From: Novosphingobium sp. JCM 18896
Lineage (GTDB): Bacteria; Pseudomonadota; Alphaproteobacteria; Sphingomonadales; Sphingomonadaceae
Assembly (NCBI RefSeq): GCF_025938095.1
Contig: NZ_JAPCZF010000002.1
Span: 186,001-250,000, forward strand
Length of the DNA: 64,000 nt
Direction: 5' to 3'
Under the pieces are notes generated by a model. The model made no database searches, was not told the origin of the DNA, and saw only the letters and a program-made list of their open reading frames with translations. Below, piece by piece: positions 42,778 to 59,235 of the stretch. Both the position numbers and the translations under genes were made by a program. Numbering within the stretch: the stretch's first letter is position 1; the number at the start of each line of letters is the position of its first letter.

Positions 42778-43275
42778 TCAGGGCAGCGGGATCGCGACCA
42801 TGCCGGGGCGGACGATCTGCGCGCGCAGCGTGTCCTTGGCATTCGCCGCGGCGGCCGCATTGCTGCTGACCGCGCGTACGCGGATCCAGGCACCGACGGG
42901 GCCGGCCTCGAGCGCTTCGCCCGGCTGCGACACGGTGAAGCCATCGCCCTGGACCGCGATCGTCACGGCATCGCCGCGCGTGACCGCCGGCAGGACCGGG
43001 ACCGCCGCAGCGCCCAGCGTGGCATTGGCCACCTGGACGAAGATCCGCCAGCCGCCCGGACACTGCACGAGCACCGAATCACGGCGCATGCCGTTCCAGG
43101 TCACCGCCAGAGGGGCAGCGCAGGATTGCAGGCGGAGACGGCGATCGACGGGGTTCGAGGCACCGCCGGGGGCGCCGATCGGCGCACCGGTGAAAGCCGC
43201 GACCTCGCGGTCGATGGCGTCGAGATCGGCAAAGCCGGCGGCAGCCGCCAGCGTCAAGCCAAGAGCCAAACTCAT
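42778..43275 (-). CDS. flgA: Flagellar basal body P-ring formation protein FlgA
   Basis: The 165-residue protein has a signal-peptide-like start (MSLALGLTLAAAAGFA). The SAF-type C-terminal domain includes PAVTRGDAVTIAVQGDGFTVS and RVRAVSSNAAAAANAKDTLRAQIV. The late VRVxNxxSxxxxxGxV-like pattern is the FlgA hallmark. It chaperones FlgI during P-ring assembly in the periplasm. It starts 16 bases after the stop of the small Asp-bearing membrane gene, so it is likely in the same transcript as the stator-like pair. Confidence 0.9.
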   Translation of the reverse strand: MSLALGLTLAAAAGFADLDAIDREVAAFTGAPIGAPGGASNPVDRRLRLQSCAAPLAVTWNGMRRDSVLVQCPGGWRIFVQVANATLGAAAVPVLPAVTRGDAVTIAVQGDGFTVSQPGEALEAGPVGAWIRVRAVSSNAAAAANAKDTLRAQIVRPGMVAIPLP

Positions 43276-43291: not shown

Positions 43292-43819
43292 TCAGTTGCT
43301 GGGAACGGCCTTCTGCAAAGTCTGTGCCATTGTCGCCGAAGCCTGTGAATCGGGCGAATCGAAAGCCAGCGCGGCGGTGGTTCCGCCCTGCCCCGGCTCG
43401 ATGACGATGCGCGCGCGCAGCCCCGCCTGGCCCGCGTCCTGCGCCAGCACCGCGGCCTGGCTCATCGCCCGCGCCTGCTCGCCGGGGCGGTACTGCGCGA
43501 CGATGGTCAGCTGCTGGCGCGCATCGGCCGACTGGTCGCGCAGCCACTGGCCGAGCGGCGGCGCGCCGGGCGCGGCACGATAGAGCGCAAGCACCTCGCC
43601 CTGCTGCGACAGCGGCGAGCTGTTCTTGGCAGAGGCCGCTTCTTGCCGGGCGGCAACGGCAGGCCTTGCCGGTTTTGCCGGCGCGTCCTCGGCCGAGGCG
43701 AGCGCCGCGGCGGTGACCATGAACAGGATCAGCGACAGGTCGGCGAGCAGGTACTGCCAGCCGCTGCCCGACCGTCCGCTGAGCGACGAGCTGGCCGAGA
43801 GGGCAGACCCGGCGATCAT
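43292..43819 (-). CDS. Small single-helix membrane protein, possible partner of the MotA/TolQ-like channel
   Basis: The 175-residue protein has one N-terminal transmembrane helix, WQYLLADLSLILFMVTAAAL (about residues 21-40). Its Asp27 occupies the place of the proton-carrying Asp in MotB/ExbD/TolR (compare WKVAYADFVTAMMAFF in motB of this window). The rest is an Ala/Glu-rich periplasmic domain (about residues 50-175) without an OmpA-like peptidoglycan-binding motif. The start overlaps the stop of the MotA/TolQ-like gene (ATGA). No named family recognised; role as channel partner is inference. Confidence 0.65.
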   Translation of the reverse strand: MIAGSALSASSSLSGRSGSGWQYLLADLSLILFMVTAAALASAEDAPAKPARPAVAARQEAASAKNSSPLSQQGEVLALYRAAPGAPPLGQWLRDQSADARQQLTIVAQYRPGEQARAMSQAAVLAQDAGQAGLRARIVIEPGQGGTTAALAFDSPDSQASATMAQTLQKAVPSN

Positions 43820-44481
43820 GCCGAAAGCTTCTCGGGCACGAACTGCGGCCGCGTACGCGCGGGCATGGCGCCCGCAACCTGCTTGGCCAGCCAGTCGACG
43901 ATCTTCTGGCGCTCGCTCTCTTCCTCGGTGGCGACGCGCTCGACCGCGCGGGCCAGCGGCGCGAGCACCAGGTTGGCGAGCAACAGGCCATAGAGCGTCG
44001 CGCAGACCGCCATCGAGATCGCGCCCATGTAGGCGTGCTTGTTGATGCCGTCGGCGGGAAGCTGGGTCAGCGAGAACAGCGTCGCGGCAAGGCCGAAGAC
44101 CGGCGCGAGGTCCGCGGCCTGGGCCAGGGTGCGCACGGCGCGGGTGTCGGTCAGCAGGCGGCGCTGCTTGTTCGCCTCGTGGATTTCGAGCAGGCCGGCG
44201 ACCGAGCGCGTGCCGATCATGCGATCGGTCGCCTCGTCCATCTCGCGGTCACCCGAATGGATCGGCTGAACGCGCAGCACGCCTTCGCGCTGGATCTGCT
44301 GGACCTTGATCGCGAGCTCGGAGCGCGCCTCGCTGGCGTCGAAGCGCTTGCCGCCGAGCCGGCCGATGCCCGCGAGCGCGGCGCCGAAATCGCCCGTGCC
44401 ACAGCGCAGCACGGTCGCGAGCAGCGTTCCGCCCACGACGATCGAGGCCGACACCGGATCCAAAAGGCTGGCAAGGTTCAT
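43816..44481 (-). CDS. MotA/TolQ/ExbB-family proton channel protein (second stator-like subunit)
   Basis: The 221-residue protein has two clear hydrophobic N-terminal stretches, starting MNLASLLDPVSASIVVGGTLLATVL. A cytoplasmic loop and two more helices follow (AADLAPVFGLAATLFSLTQLP and AISMAVCATLYGLLLANLVLAPLA), the MotA_ExbB domain. The MotA-type PP/GT motifs are only partly kept. I preferred the ATG at 44481, with GAAGGGG 11 bases upstream, to the GTG at 44493. It is divergent from flgB and precedes the small Asp-bearing protein and flgA. The true stator genes motA-motB lie at 53483-55192. Confidence 0.8.
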   Translation of the reverse strand: MNLASLLDPVSASIVVGGTLLATVLRCGTGDFGAALAGIGRLGGKRFDASEARSELAIKVQQIQREGVLRVQPIHSGDREMDEATDRMIGTRSVAGLLEIHEANKQRRLLTDTRAVRTLAQAADLAPVFGLAATLFSLTQLPADGINKHAYMGAISMAVCATLYGLLLANLVLAPLARAVERVATEEESERQKIVDWLAKQVAGAMPARTRPQFVPEKLSA

Positions 44482-44505
44482 CGAGAAAAGCACCCCTTCG
44501 CGTGA

Positions 44506-44532
44506 AACCTAGAACGGCAAGGCCGGCAGGAT
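44506..44532 (-). promoter_or_regulatory. Candidate sigma-28-like promoter of the stator-like/flgA unit
   Basis: Reading the minus strand, GCCGTTCT preceded at 15 bases by CTGA resembles the fliC promoter (GCCGCTCT, TTAA). Both share TTGCCG[C/T]TCTAG. The -35 match is poor, and the TTGCCG part could instead be an activator half-site. Confidence 0.3.
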
Positions 44533-44568
44533 TTCAGACCGACTCGGACAAATTTTGCCGCCGGCACC

Positions 44569-44584
44569 CGGCAACGCTTTGCCG
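44569..44584. promoter_or_regulatory. Activator palindrome (FlbD/ftr-like) upstream of flgB
   Basis: CGGCAA-CGCT-TTGCCG is a perfect palindrome and close to the Caulobacter ftr element bound by FlbD. It lies 43 bases upstream of the flgB -24 element and between the flgB and stator-like genes, so it could act on both. A further TTTTGCCGCCGGCA lies just before it. Confidence 0.65.
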
Positions 44585-44626
44585 CATTCACCCCTAACAA
44601 ATCGCCAAAACCCGCCATTTTTCGAT

Positions 44627-44643
44627 TTGGCACGGTGCTTGCT
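44627..44643 (+). promoter_or_regulatory. Sigma-54 promoter of flgBCDEF
   Basis: TTGGCACG-GTGC-TTGCT fits the -24/-12 consensus with correct spacing, 35 bases before the flgB start. Confidence 0.88.
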
Positions 44644-44677
44644 CATTCAGGCGGGTGATGCACACGGAGCTCGTTCG

Positions 44678-45025
44678 ATGAGTGAAGGCCTGTTCGGAAT
44701 ACACGCTGCTGCGCTGGAACTTCAGTCCCAGCGCATGGGGCTTATCACGTCCAACATCGCCAACGCCGCCACCCCCGGCTACAAGGCCAAGGACATCGAC
44801 TTCGCCGCAGCGCTGAAGGCGAAGACCTCGGGCATGAGCACCGACCAGGCGACCTCGGCCGCCACGCTCTATCGCGTACCGCTGATGCCCTCGCTCGACG
44901 GCAACACGGTCGAGCTGCCGACCGAGCAGCTCGCCTTCACGCAGAACGCCGTCGGCTATTCGTCCACGCTCAGCTTCATCCGCGGCCGCGTCGAGACGAT
45001 CACGCGCGCGTTGAAGGGAGACTAA
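44678..45025 (+). CDS. flgB: Flagellar basal-body rod protein FlgB
   Basis: The 115-residue proximal rod protein has the N-terminal SQRMGLITSNIANAATPGYKAKDIDF, the rod/hook-family motif. GGAGC lies 10 bases before the ATG at 44678. It ends in the typical amphipathic helix (LSFIRGRVETITRALKG). It is first in flgB-flgC-flgD-flgE-flgF. Residues 60-95 have the usual loop with LPTEQLAFTQNAVGYSS. Confidence 0.95.
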   Translation: MSEGLFGIHAAALELQSQRMGLITSNIANAATPGYKAKDIDFAAALKAKTSGMSTDQATSAATLYRVPLMPSLDGNTVELPTEQLAFTQNAVGYSSTLSFIRGRVETITRALKGD

Positions 45026-45028
45026 CCC

Positions 45029-45430
45029 ATGCCCGCGATGAACATCTTCGACGTTGCGCAGCGGGGCATGTCGGCACAGCTCGTGCGCATGAACGCGGCC
45101 TCGTCGAACCTGGCCAACGCCGGTTCGGTCGCCAGCAGCGAGGAAGGCGCCTATCGCCCGATCCGCGCGGTCTTCGCCGAACAGCTCGACAAGACCAGCG
45201 GCCTTTCGACGGTCAACGTCCAGTCGGTCATGCGCGAGAACGCGCGCGCCGTCCGCGAACACAATCCCGACCATCCGCTCGCCGACGAGAACGGCGACGT
45301 GTGGACCAGCCCGGTCGATGAGAACACCGAGATGGTCGAGATGCTCGATTCCGCCCGCCAATACCAGAACCTGGTCGAGGCGCTCACTACCGCCAAGCAG
45401 CTCATGCTCGATACGATGAGGCTCAAATGA
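45029..45430 (+). CDS. flgC: Flagellar basal-body rod protein FlgC
   Basis: The 133-residue rod protein begins MPAMNIFDVAQRGMSAQLVRM with ASSNLANAGSV and ends with the conserved ARQYQNLVEALTTAKQLMLD helix. It starts three bases after flgB, and its stop overlaps the flgD start (ATGA). Confidence 0.96.
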   Translation: MPAMNIFDVAQRGMSAQLVRMNAASSNLANAGSVASSEEGAYRPIRAVFAEQLDKTSGLSTVNVQSVMRENARAVREHNPDHPLADENGDVWTSPVDENTEMVEMLDSARQYQNLVEALTTAKQLMLDTMRLK

Positions 45431-45753
45431 CTTCTATCTTTAGCGGCGTAAACGCCACGTCCTCGGCCGCCAGCGCCACCACCGACTCCAAGGTCGGCAA
45501 GGGCATGGGCTCGATGGACGGCACCGACTTCCTGAAGCTGCTGACCACCCAGCTGCAGAACCAGGATCCGACCGATCCGATGGATAACAGCCAGATGCTC
45601 GCACAGATGGCGCAGTTCACCTCGCTGTCGAACTCGACCGAGCAGACTTCGACGCTGAAGGCCATCGCCGACAAGCTTGATACCGTGATCACGAACACCG
45701 GCACCAAGACGCCGACCCCCACGCCGACGCCGACGCCGTCGACCACCGCCTGA
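45427..45753 (+). CDS. flgD: Flagellar hook-capping protein FlgD, N-terminal domain only
   Basis: The 108-residue protein contains the FlgD N-terminal motif: MDGTDFLKLLTTQLQNQDPT followed by PMDNSQMLAQMAQFTSL. Typical FlgD proteins are about 220 residues, with a C-terminal tudor/FnIII-like part. That part is absent here. Instead the protein ends with a Thr-Pro tail (KTPTPTPTPTPSTTA), and flgE starts 25 bases later, leaving no room for a frameshifted remainder. It should cap the growing hook. Confidence 0.9.
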   Translation: MTSIFSGVNATSSAASATTDSKVGKGMGSMDGTDFLKLLTTQLQNQDPTDPMDNSQMLAQMAQFTSLSNSTEQTSTLKAIADKLDTVITNTGTKTPTPTPTPTPSTTA

Positions 45754-53482: not shown

Positions 53483-54346
53483 ATGTTCGTAGCAGTCGGT
53501 ATCGTCATCCTGCTGGCCATGGTGTTCGGCGGCTTCGCCATCACCGGCGGGTCGCTCGGACCCGTGCTTCACGCCATTCCGCACGAAATGCTGATCATCG
53601 GCGGCGCCGCAGTCGGCGCCATCGTGACCGGCAACTCGATGCACGAACTCAAGGCCTTCGGCGGCGGCTTCATGCGCGCGGCGAAGGGCCCCAAGCACAA
53701 CAAGCAGGATCACATCGACGTCATCATCCTGACGACGCGCCTGATGAAGCTGCTGCGCAGCGAAGGCCCGGTCGCGCTGGAAAGCCACGTCCAGGATCCC
53801 AAGAGCTCGGCGATCTTCGCCGAATTCCCGCGCCTGCTGGCGAACAAGCCGCTGGTCGACCTGATCGCCGACACGCTGACCTTGATCGTCGTCTCGTCGG
53901 GCACGCTCGAAGTCCACGCGGTCGAAGAGGTCATGGACAATGCGATGAAGACGCATTTCCACGAGCTGCACGAACCCCAGCACGCGATCCAGGGCCTGGC
54001 CGACGCGCTTCCGGCACTCGGCATCGTCGCGGCCGTTCTCGGCGTGGTCAAGACCATGGGCTCGATCGACAAGCCGCCGAGCATCCTCGGTGGCATGATC
54101 GGCTCGGCCCTCGTCGGTACCTTCCTCGGGATTCTGCTCGCCTACGGTATCGTCGCGCCCATCGCCGGCCGCCTCAAGCAGGTGAACGAGCAGGACGAGA
54201 TGATCTTCCACGCGGTCAAGCAGGTGATCGTCGCCTCGCTCCACGGCTGGCCCCAGCCGCTGGTCGTCGAGAGCGCCCGCTCGGGCCTGGGCCACGCCTT
54301 CCGTCCGGGTCTCTCGGAACTGCTCGACGCGATGCGGGGACGCTAA
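53483..54346 (+). CDS. motA: Flagellar motor stator protein MotA
   Basis: The 287-residue protein has four transmembrane helices with the MotA pattern: AVGIVILLAMVFGGFAITGG at the start, then GIVAAVLGVVKTMGSIDKPP and GLIGSALVGTFLGILLAYGI-like helix 4. The cytoplasmic loop holds basic and acidic residues that face FliG. With MotB it forms the proton channel driving rotation. motB starts three bases after its stop. Confidence 0.94.
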   Translation: MFVAVGIVILLAMVFGGFAITGGSLGPVLHAIPHEMLIIGGAAVGAIVTGNSMHELKAFGGGFMRAAKGPKHNKQDHIDVIILTTRLMKLLRSEGPVALESHVQDPKSSAIFAEFPRLLANKPLVDLIADTLTLIVVSSGTLEVHAVEEVMDNAMKTHFHELHEPQHAIQGLADALPALGIVAAVLGVVKTMGSIDKPPSILGGMIGSALVGTFLGILLAYGIVAPIAGRLKQVNEQDEMIFHAVKQVIVASLHGWPQPLVVESARSGLGHAFRPGLSELLDAMRGR

Positions 54347-54349
54347 GCC

Positions 54350-55192
54350 ATGGCTGCCGCGAAGAAGGGCGGGAAGCAGGAGCTTCCGCCACCGGTCATC
54401 GTCAAGAAGATCACCATCGTCGCGGGCGGCCACCACGGCGGCGCCTGGAAGGTGGCCTATGCGGACTTCGTGACCGCGATGATGGCCTTCTTCCTGCTGC
54501 TGTGGATTCTCGGCGCCACGACCGAGAAGCAGCGCAAGGGCATCGCCGACTACTTCACGCCGACCCTGGTCAAGCTGCGCGAGAACAGCGCAGGCTCGGG
54601 CGCCGGCCTGCTCGGCGGTTCCTCGGTGACCGACGTCGACAACTATCCGCACCGTGCCGGCCAGACCGGCACCCAGGCCATGACCATCCCCCGCGACGCC
54701 ACCGGCGGTCCGAAGGAAGGCAGCGGCCGCAGCAACCGCGTCAAGAAGATGGAGCAGCAGCTCCAGGAGAAGATGCAGGCGAACGAGGCCCTCAAGCGTC
54801 TCGCCAAGCAGGTCCGCATGGTCGACACCACGCAGGGCATCCGCATCGACCTGGTCGACAATGCCGACTTCTCGATGTTCATGCTCGGCACGACCGTGCT
54901 GACGCCAGACGCCTCGCAGCTGCTCAAGGTGATCGGCGATACCGTCGCACCGCAGGGCGGCGGCCTGACGATCCGCGGGCATACCGATTCGCTGCCGTGG
55001 AAATCGGGCGGCGCCAACAACTGGTCGCTGTCCGCCGGCCGCGCCGAGGCGACCCGCCAGGCGCTGATGCGCTCGGGCATCACCGAGGATCGCTTCCGCC
55101 GGATCGAAGGCGTCGCCGATCGCGAGTTGCTCGTACGCGACAACCCGCAGGATCCGCGCAACCGACGTATATCCATCCTGTTGCAGGATTGA
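54350..55192 (+). CDS. motB: Flagellar motor stator protein MotB
   Basis: The 280-residue protein has one N-terminal helix WKVAYADFVTAMMAFFLLLW with the proton-carrying Asp (about residue 42) and a linker. The C-terminal OmpA-like peptidoglycan-binding domain includes GHTDSLPWKSGGANNWSLS, AGRAEATRQALM and NRRISILL. It anchors the stator. Last gene of the flgG unit; a strong hairpin follows its stop. Confidence 0.95.
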   Translation: MAAAKKGGKQELPPPVIVKKITIVAGGHHGGAWKVAYADFVTAMMAFFLLLWILGATTEKQRKGIADYFTPTLVKLRENSAGSGAGLLGGSSVTDVDNYPHRAGQTGTQAMTIPRDATGGPKEGSGRSNRVKKMEQQLQEKMQANEALKRLAKQVRMVDTTQGIRIDLVDNADFSMFMLGTTVLTPDASQLLKVIGDTVAPQGGGLTIRGHTDSLPWKSGGANNWSLSAGRAEATRQALMRSGITEDRFRRIEGVADRELLVRDNPQDPRNRRISILLQD

Positions 55193-58287: not shown

Positions 58288-58341
58288 GCAGTCGATCAAT
58301 CGGTTATGTAGTCGTTAAGGTATTCAGTCTCGTCGGTGCTC

Positions 58342-59166
58342 TTAGCGGAGCAGCGAGAGGACGCCCTGGGCCGACTGGTTGGCCTGCGAGAGCATGGCCG
58401 TCGAAGCCTGGCTGACGATCTGGGCCTTGGCGAGCGCGGTCGTTTCGGCCGAGTAGTCGGCGTCTTCGATGCGGCTGCGGGCGTCCGACAGGTTCGTCAC
58501 GTTGTTGGTCAGGTTGTTGACCGCCGATTCCAGACGGCTCTGGCTGGCACCCAGCGAGGCGCGGGTCGTGTTGATCGCGGCGAGCGCGGTGTCGACGTTG
58601 CCGATCGTGGTACCGGCAGCCGAAGCGCTCGAAACGTCGAGGGCCGAAGCATTGACCTTGGTGCCGTCGATGCCCTTGATCTTCAGGTCGATCGTGTTGC
58701 CCGAGTCCGAACCGGCCTGGATGGTCACCTGGACCGAACCGGTCGAGGTCTTGTCGAACAGCGTCACGCCGTTGAACTTGGTGTTGGTCAGGATGTCGTC
58801 GATCTGCGAGGTCAGTTCGGTGACTTCGGCCTGCAGGTTGGTGCGGTCCGACGACTGGTAGGTGCCCGACTTCGACTGGATCGACAGTTCACGAACGCGC
58901 TGCAGCATGTTGGTGACTTCGTTCAGCGCGCCGTCGGCGGTCTGAGCGAGGGCGATGCCGTCGTTGGCGTTGCGGATGGCCTGCGTCATGCCGCGGACCT
59001 GCGAGGTCATGGTCGTGGCGATCGCGAGACCGGCCGCGTCGTCCTTGGCGCTGTTGATGCGCTTGCCGGTCGACAGACGCTCCATCGCGTTGCCCAGAGC
59101 CTTGGCGGCCGAGTTACCGGCGTTAGCCGCTTTCATCGCGCCGATGTTGGTGTTGATAACTGCCAT
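58342..59166 (-). CDS. fliC: Flagellin FliC
   Basis: The 274-residue flagellin opens [20 protein letters not shown] with the D0/D1 helix pattern and [20 protein letters not shown]. The C-terminus [20 protein letters not shown] and the final QGVLSLLR are universal flagellin segments. The variable middle is short (about residues 125-215), typical for alphaproteobacteria. The ATG at 59166 is chosen; the open frame extends 41 residues but that part is promoter. Monocistronic, on the strand opposite to the activator operon. Confidence 0.97.
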
Positions 59167-59235
59167 GTCAAACTCCCGTAAGTAGACCCGAATGGGGGTG
59201 CCGCCCGAGTGCATTCGATGCGGCTGCCAGGAGCT

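Follow-up and report, generated by a model that had tools for sequence, protein, structure and literature searches.

A stator-like gene pair between flgB and flgA in the flagellar gene cluster of Novosphingobium sp. JCM 18896

Results

The gene pair and its surroundings

The window, i.e., the whole analyzed stretch of 64,000 nucleotides from Novosphingobium sp. JCM 18896, contains two overlapping genes on the reverse strand. The upstream gene (43816..44481) encodes a MotA/PomA-like subunit of 221 aa with three predicted transmembrane helices that lacks transmembrane helix 1; its assignment to the MotA_ExbB family of Pfam was based on 33.4 bits versus a cut-off of 22.9. The downstream gene (43292..43819) encodes a MotB-like partner of 175 aa, and its start shares four bases (ATGA) with the stop of the MotA-like gene. 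The partner carries the transmembrane motif W21-x4-A26-D27, followed by a short linker and a predicted OmpA-like periplasmic domain at about residues 76–155. The gene for the P-ring chaperone, flgA, lies 16 bases downstream of the partner gene (42778..43275, reverse strand), and beyond it are found, in this order, flgM, an FlgN-like gene, a lytic-transglycosylase-like gene, flhA, and fliA. On the other side, flgB was read as diverging from the pair, which thus sits between flgB and flgA.

The ordinary stator genes lie outside the pair on the forward strand (53483..55192; motA 53483–54346, motB 54350–55192), and this MotB carries MotB_plug and OmpA domains. As the genome contains two further MotA_ExbB-family genes, read as tolQR and exbBD from their neighbors, the described pair is the fourth one in this genome. 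A preliminary description of the locus had reported a MotA-like gene that overlaps the gene of a small partner, a WxxxxAD pattern with Asp27 in the partner helix, flgA 16 bases farther on, and a separate complete motA-motB in the same cluster; all of this was confirmed, including both coding regions.

Elsewhere in the window, FlgD (45427–45753) reads as just 108 residues, compared with open frames of about 216–262 residues in several sister lineages. An open reading frame of 281 residues (58336–59181) ahead of a sigma-54 activator gene is present in 7 of the 9 clusters compared and had no match in Pfam or NCBIfam up to E 1.

The gene order was compared at 38 loci in addition to the window; two of them, L005 and L015, come from a single genome, and L007 and L008 are near-copies. 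The four-base overlap within the pair was present in 38/38 loci, and flgA was directly next in 35, 17 of these with a four-base overlap as scored, while the other three loci end at contig ends. This regularity shows that the arrangement is not due to chance. In the genus g3, the pair and flgA lie about 1.2–1.4 kb apart at three loci (L087, L090, and L093). An opposed gene that reads as diguanylate-cyclase-like (GGDEF) fills this gap in L087 (4468–5568) and in L093 (4429–5529).

The divergent intergenic region between the pair and flgB (44482..44678) contains a sigma-54-type site, TGGCACGGTGCTTGCT, that points toward flgB, and a TGGCAC-type site was found in 20 of the 38 upstream regions. It also contains the palindrome GGCAAAGCGTTGCC (GGCAA-N4-TTGCC), which we take to be FlbD/ftr-like; a palindrome-like element occurs in 29/38 upstream regions. 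The element CTGAAA-N14-GCCGTTC is located upstream of the pair and was present in 18/38 upstream regions; within the window there is one match, versus 0.38 expected by chance.

In one genome without the pair (G398), FlgP-like and FlgT_N genes occupy the slot between flgB and flgA (L121, 3779–4165 and 4162–5238). As this was the one clear case among 296 genomes, the idea that FlgP/FlgT generally take the place of the pair was not retained.

The MotA-like subunit lacks the first helix

The sequence match of the MotA-like protein to PomA (PomA structures at E 2e-10) begins at residue 29, which corresponds to the second helix. An alignment of 88 family rows had 12–19 residues ahead of the helix-2 motif, compared with 37–42 residues in 19 full-length relatives. 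In this row set, the G108 genome is represented at least twice and other near-copies are possible; L008, L015, and L045, the last being the second copy of the window, were left out. The start codons nearest to the window's start had been chosen, and the upstream frames of all 88 rows were then checked. No earlier start was present in 25 rows, and in 16 rows there was one only within 14 residues. Among the other 47 rows, only two showed a borderline hydrophobic stretch upstream (1.61 and 1.35), compared with 2.33–2.76 for four full-length relatives. Together, the short N-termini and the upstream frames indicate that MotA helix 1 is missing from the whole family, with three transmembrane helices remaining, and that the earlier reading as a four-helix MotA/TolQ/ExbB-like protein is wrong. 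The four-helix square fold was also rejected because the structural model aligns to PomA only from residue 24.

This model, built from an alignment of 10 sequences, had a mean pLDDT of 77. Its best structural match was PomA, with a VIA Z of 18.5 for model residues 1–205 on chain residues 24–229, versus a Z of 10.8 for the best TolQ. The torque-generating interface of stator A subunits comprises at least four helices; the PomA cytoplasmic domain aligns with the MotA-like sequence, but the 10-sequence model has two short helices there. In the MotA tree, TolQ and ExbB, which were represented by one row each from the window's own genome, were split with a support of 100/99 from the MotA/PomA rows and from all 21 rows of the pair. 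Canonical MotA separated from the MotA-like proteins of the pair. The pair rows did not form one clade in the tree as drawn, with which a single origin of the pair would nevertheless be compatible. Membership in the TolQ/ExbB group was rejected on the basis of the tree split and the lower fold score. Judged from phylogeny and the predicted fold, the pair belongs with the PomA/MotA-type flagellar stators and not with TolQR or ExbBD.

The partner has a predicted OmpA-like domain without the binding motif

The partner was modeled with a single transmembrane helix (residues 21–41) that contains Asp27, a disordered linker, and a beta-alpha-beta-alpha-beta-beta domain, for which the block pLDDT was 81–91 (residues 81–150). 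The top ranks of the VIA comparison for this domain were OmpA-like (Z 7.2) and MotB (Z 6.8), values that are below the tool's safe level and close to the scores of about 6 of some unrelated folds. The partner model had no Foldseek match with E < 0.001, and the OmpA profile matched neither the window's partner nor that of L016. However, sister-lineage partners occupy the same site, and most share the four-base overlap; of six that were scanned, three were above the OmpA PF00691 cut-off and one was above the MotB_plug cut-off. These matches support the prediction that the window's partner has an OmpA-like periplasmic domain by fold. Profile comparisons gave no match between the window-type partners (A2) and the window's MotB, a weak match of A2 to the sister-lineage partners (29 columns, probability 71), and a modest match of the latter to MotB (probability 46, E 2e-4).

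The linker between transmembrane helix and domain comprises about 34 residues in the partner, compared with about 117 in the window's MotB, and the plug and long linker of MotB/PomB are absent. The peptidoglycan-binding motif, which we take to be of the GHTD and LSxxR type, is present in the window's ordinary MotB, but none was seen in the window's partner or in the A2 consensus. The loss is graded: The motif is kept in form (GHVD/GGTD-like plus R) in some Sphingomonas-type partners, with the D and R positions retained by reading in L074, L075, L083, and L091; in others about half of it survives, and in the window's lineage it has disappeared. The proposed lack of a peptidoglycan-binding domain thus applies to the binding motif, but not to the domain as such, which is predicted to be present.

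Ion-path positions are kept, and rotor-contact charges vary

The ion-path positions of the MotA-like protein were nearly invariant in the 88 rows, with P127 in 88/88, T134 in 87/88, and T162 in 82/88 (Ser in five others). The equivalent residues of PomA line the ion path. The transmembrane Asp was present in 86/86 partners, in 85 by motif and in one by eye; L081, which has no partner, was excluded from this count. The ion-path positions have been kept, and ion binding and flow are putative functions of the pair.

The charges at the rotor interface were less uniform. MotA R90 and E98 make contact with FliG, according to PMC7564593. At the respective positions (R88 and E96 of PomA), the window's protein has Q64 and Q72. 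The R88 position was occupied by Arg in 29 of the 88 MotA-like rows, compared with 19/19 full-length relatives, and the E96 position was acidic in 38/88 rows, compared with 16/19 full-length relatives. However, in the Sphingomonas-type and related lineages, 16/16 rows have kept the acid at the E96 position. The loss of contact charges therefore depends on the lineage, which makes it less likely that rotor contact was lost throughout the family. As some partners of Sphingomonas-type lineages also keep the peptidoglycan motif, both anchoring and rotor contact could persist in these lineages.

Distribution of the pair

In the genus, 149 genomes were analyzed, of which 123 contained the pair and 131 contained FlhA. 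Both were found in 122 genomes, the pair only in one, FlhA only in nine, and neither in 17 (Fisher p 5e-15, uncorrected for kinship). The pair was present in 122 of the 128 congeners with the main FlhA type. Four of the six others (G075, G053, G065, and G114) are cut by or at contig ends. FlhA was located at contig ends in G065 and G114, and the loci of G075, G053, G117, and G019 were read. In G117, the 778 bases ahead of flgA contain no partner; G019 has neither flgA nor the pair, and its lytic enzyme gene is broken. In the one genome with the pair and without FlhA (G086), a contig end lies about 1.2 kb from the pair (L033). Two weak candidates were counted as negative, a 50-residue match in G068, where the DNA revealed no convincing remnant of a decayed copy, and a match with 24% identity in G058. 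A second distinct FlhA type, with more than 800 bits to the family model, was found in 15 of the 149 congeners (G029, G035, G104, and 12 others). It occurred alone in three, and these three had no pair match.

In the order, 296 genomes were scanned. A pair match was found in 95 genomes of Sphingomonadaceae (f1), and 95/95 also carry an ordinary MotA. The order and class scans scored at most 10 candidates per genome, and part of the 95 family loci were read. A further 33 family genomes had canonical MotA and no pair match. Of these, 20 were read: 14 had flgA and flgB/C without the pair, and two had the pair (G314 and G409, which the scan had missed); four were ambiguous (G334, G385, G415, and G374), G374 being probably without the pair. 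Weak matches in other families of the order turned out to be full-length MotA of 253–258 residues (19 loci read). Among 289 genomes of the class, matches outside the order reached at most 90.3 bits, and the eight best of these loci again encode full-length MotA. Therefore, Sphingomonadaceae was the one family in which the form lacking helix 1 was seen, although rarer or more divergent forms may have been missed by the sequence search.

Nine clusters were compared, and no other gene of the window's cluster tracks the presence of the pair cleanly. FlgN, a fast-changing protein, was found only in pair-bearing clusters (3/5). The genes flgC to flgI, motAB, and flhA are kept in the four pair-less clusters of this comparison, and the loci also showed flgA. 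As some flagellated relatives without the pair thus have flgA, flgH, flgI, and motAB, the pair is dispensable for building a flagellum at the level of gene content. The preliminary description had named absence from normally flagellated relatives as an argument against its proposal; the gene-content half of this argument was borne out.

Evolution and selection

An FlhA tree with 43 rows (28 pair-bearing, 12 pair-less, and three outgroup rows) requires three changes for the pair. Of the pair-less rows, three form the earliest branches and nine are nested within; the tree carries a long-branch warning. This topology fits one gain and two later losses within Sphingomonadaceae. The dN/dS values of five pairs of loci were 0.05–0.43, which indicates selection on both genes. 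In G318, the MotA-like gene and flgA have no partner between them, and both threonines of the MotA-like protein have been lost.

In other families of the order, four loci (L096, L100, L104, and L106) have a full-length PomA-type motA between genes that read as fliN-like and flbD-like, and no motB adjoins it in these four. Descent of the pair in place from a full-length PomA-type MotA near flhA, as found in other families, was not supported by this arrangement, nor by the tree, which does not join that MotA to the pair.

Discussion

We hypothesize that the pair derives from a stator and acts as an ion-driven, flagellum-linked actuator in the periplasm, which generates no torque and instead helps in the passage or maturation of ring or rod. 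This reading is tentative, and we put its probability at about 0.4. Five MotA-like and two partner subunits would form a membrane complex of the rotary MotA5:MotB2 kind. Ions would flow past Asp27 of the partner, and the MotA-like ring would rotate around the partner dimer. This motion would not be spent as torque on the rotor. Instead, at the base of this type of flagellum, the short partner would relay it into the periplasm, where the most likely target would be the passage or maturation of ring or rod. The use would thus be similar to that of TolQR, while the descent would not. The case for a use other than torque is that the lineage of the window no longer has, or has only in eroded form, several stator features, namely helix 1, plug-linker, peptidoglycan motif, and FliG-contact charges. 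A tie to the P-ring, to assembly, or to cell-wall passage is suggested by gene position, and the G398 locus gives a slight hint that the slot between flgB and flgA suits ring-side modules.

The original proposal of an ion-driven flagellar module that does not serve torque has therefore been partly upheld. The PomA-like kinship, the ion-path positions, the lost stator features, and the flagellar linkage are in agreement with it. In contrast, the existence of flagellated relatives without the pair argues against an obligatory role, and the loci L087, L090, and L093 of g3 speak against a strict tie to FlgA. An unconventional stator, the other option in the proposal, keeps some probability, most of all in lineages with a partner that has retained the OmpA motif. 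A more specific scenario, which we regard as doubtful but worth stating, is that a stator was duplicated and then stripped to a Tol-like actuator, with ion flow helping the flagellum to cross or fit the cell wall at a P-ring, rod, or lytic-enzyme step. If true, a flagellum would contain a powered assembly step, and the assumed direction of stator evolution would be reversed.

The evidence also bears on other explanations. The PomA-like kinship would be expected as well of an auxiliary torque stator with unusual anchoring, which would dock at the rotor beside MotAB and add torque in some condition. This is unlikely, even if half of the scanned sister-lineage partners exceed the OmpA cut-off, four Sphingomonas-type partners keep the D and R positions, and the acid at the E96 position is retained in the Sphingomonas-type and related rows. 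Helix 1 and the plug-linker are missing, the binding motif is gone in the window's lineage, the R88 position is not conserved, and an ordinary MotA accompanies the pair match in every one of the 95 family genomes. This same co-presence would suit a regulatory or decoy stator, the subunits of which mix or compete with MotAB and thereby tune stator number or ion flow, and so would the GGDEF-type gene (by reading) that adjoins the pair in g3. We consider such a role rather unlikely, as the tree places the MotA-like protein far away from canonical MotA, and the pair has kept its own ion-path positions, for which a passive decoy would have no use.

The same near-invariant positions make it very improbable that the pair is a relic, i.e., a one-time stator drifting to loss. 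The dN/dS values and the presence in nearly all congeners with the main FlhA type point in the same direction, whereas the absence from two nested lineages on the most parsimonious count and the decay in G318 are what a relic would predict. Very little probability is likewise assigned to a general Tol/Exb-type envelope energizer that is only located in a flagellar cluster. The three-TM architecture and the short partner without a long linker would match, but the pair does not group with TolQ/ExbB in the tree, genes read as tolQR- and exbBD-like are present elsewhere in the genome, and 17 of the 18 congeners without FlhA had no pair match.

A literature search, judged by titles and abstract openings and with poor coverage of subscription journals, retrieved no paper recognizable as dealing with this pair. 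MotA, MotB, stator, flgA, and ExbB are not mentioned in PMC13015449. The pair is widespread, selectively maintained, and linked to the flagellum, and it keeps the ion-path positions while it has dropped several traits that define stators. It may represent a natural separation of ion conduction from torque, with graded forms across lineages, and it raises the question of whether ion flow via a dedicated motor is used in some step of flagellar assembly or maintenance.

Like PomAB and MotAB (MotA5:MotB2), the pair has adjacent genes, an A subunit that is PomA-like from helix 2 onward with the Pro/Thr/Thr positions, a transmembrane Asp in the B subunit, and a predicted OmpA-like periplasmic fold. 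Unlike them, it lacks helix 1 and the plug-linker, its binding motif is gone in the window's lineage, its rotor-contact charges are eroded, and it is found alongside a complete MotAB. With TolQR and ExbBD it shares an A subunit of three TM helices and a short B subunit that has no long linker, but it is set apart from them by the tree, the lower fold scores, the predicted OmpA-like domain of the partner, and the flagellar locus. Flagellar stators have been described as structurally conserved, and the four-helix square fold, the plug-linker, and the OmpA-related anchor are listed as unique to them in a recent study (mBio 2025, PMC12505986). In that division between flagellar and generic ion transporters, the kinship of the pair would be on the flagellar side, although it has neither the square four-helix fold nor the plug-linker.
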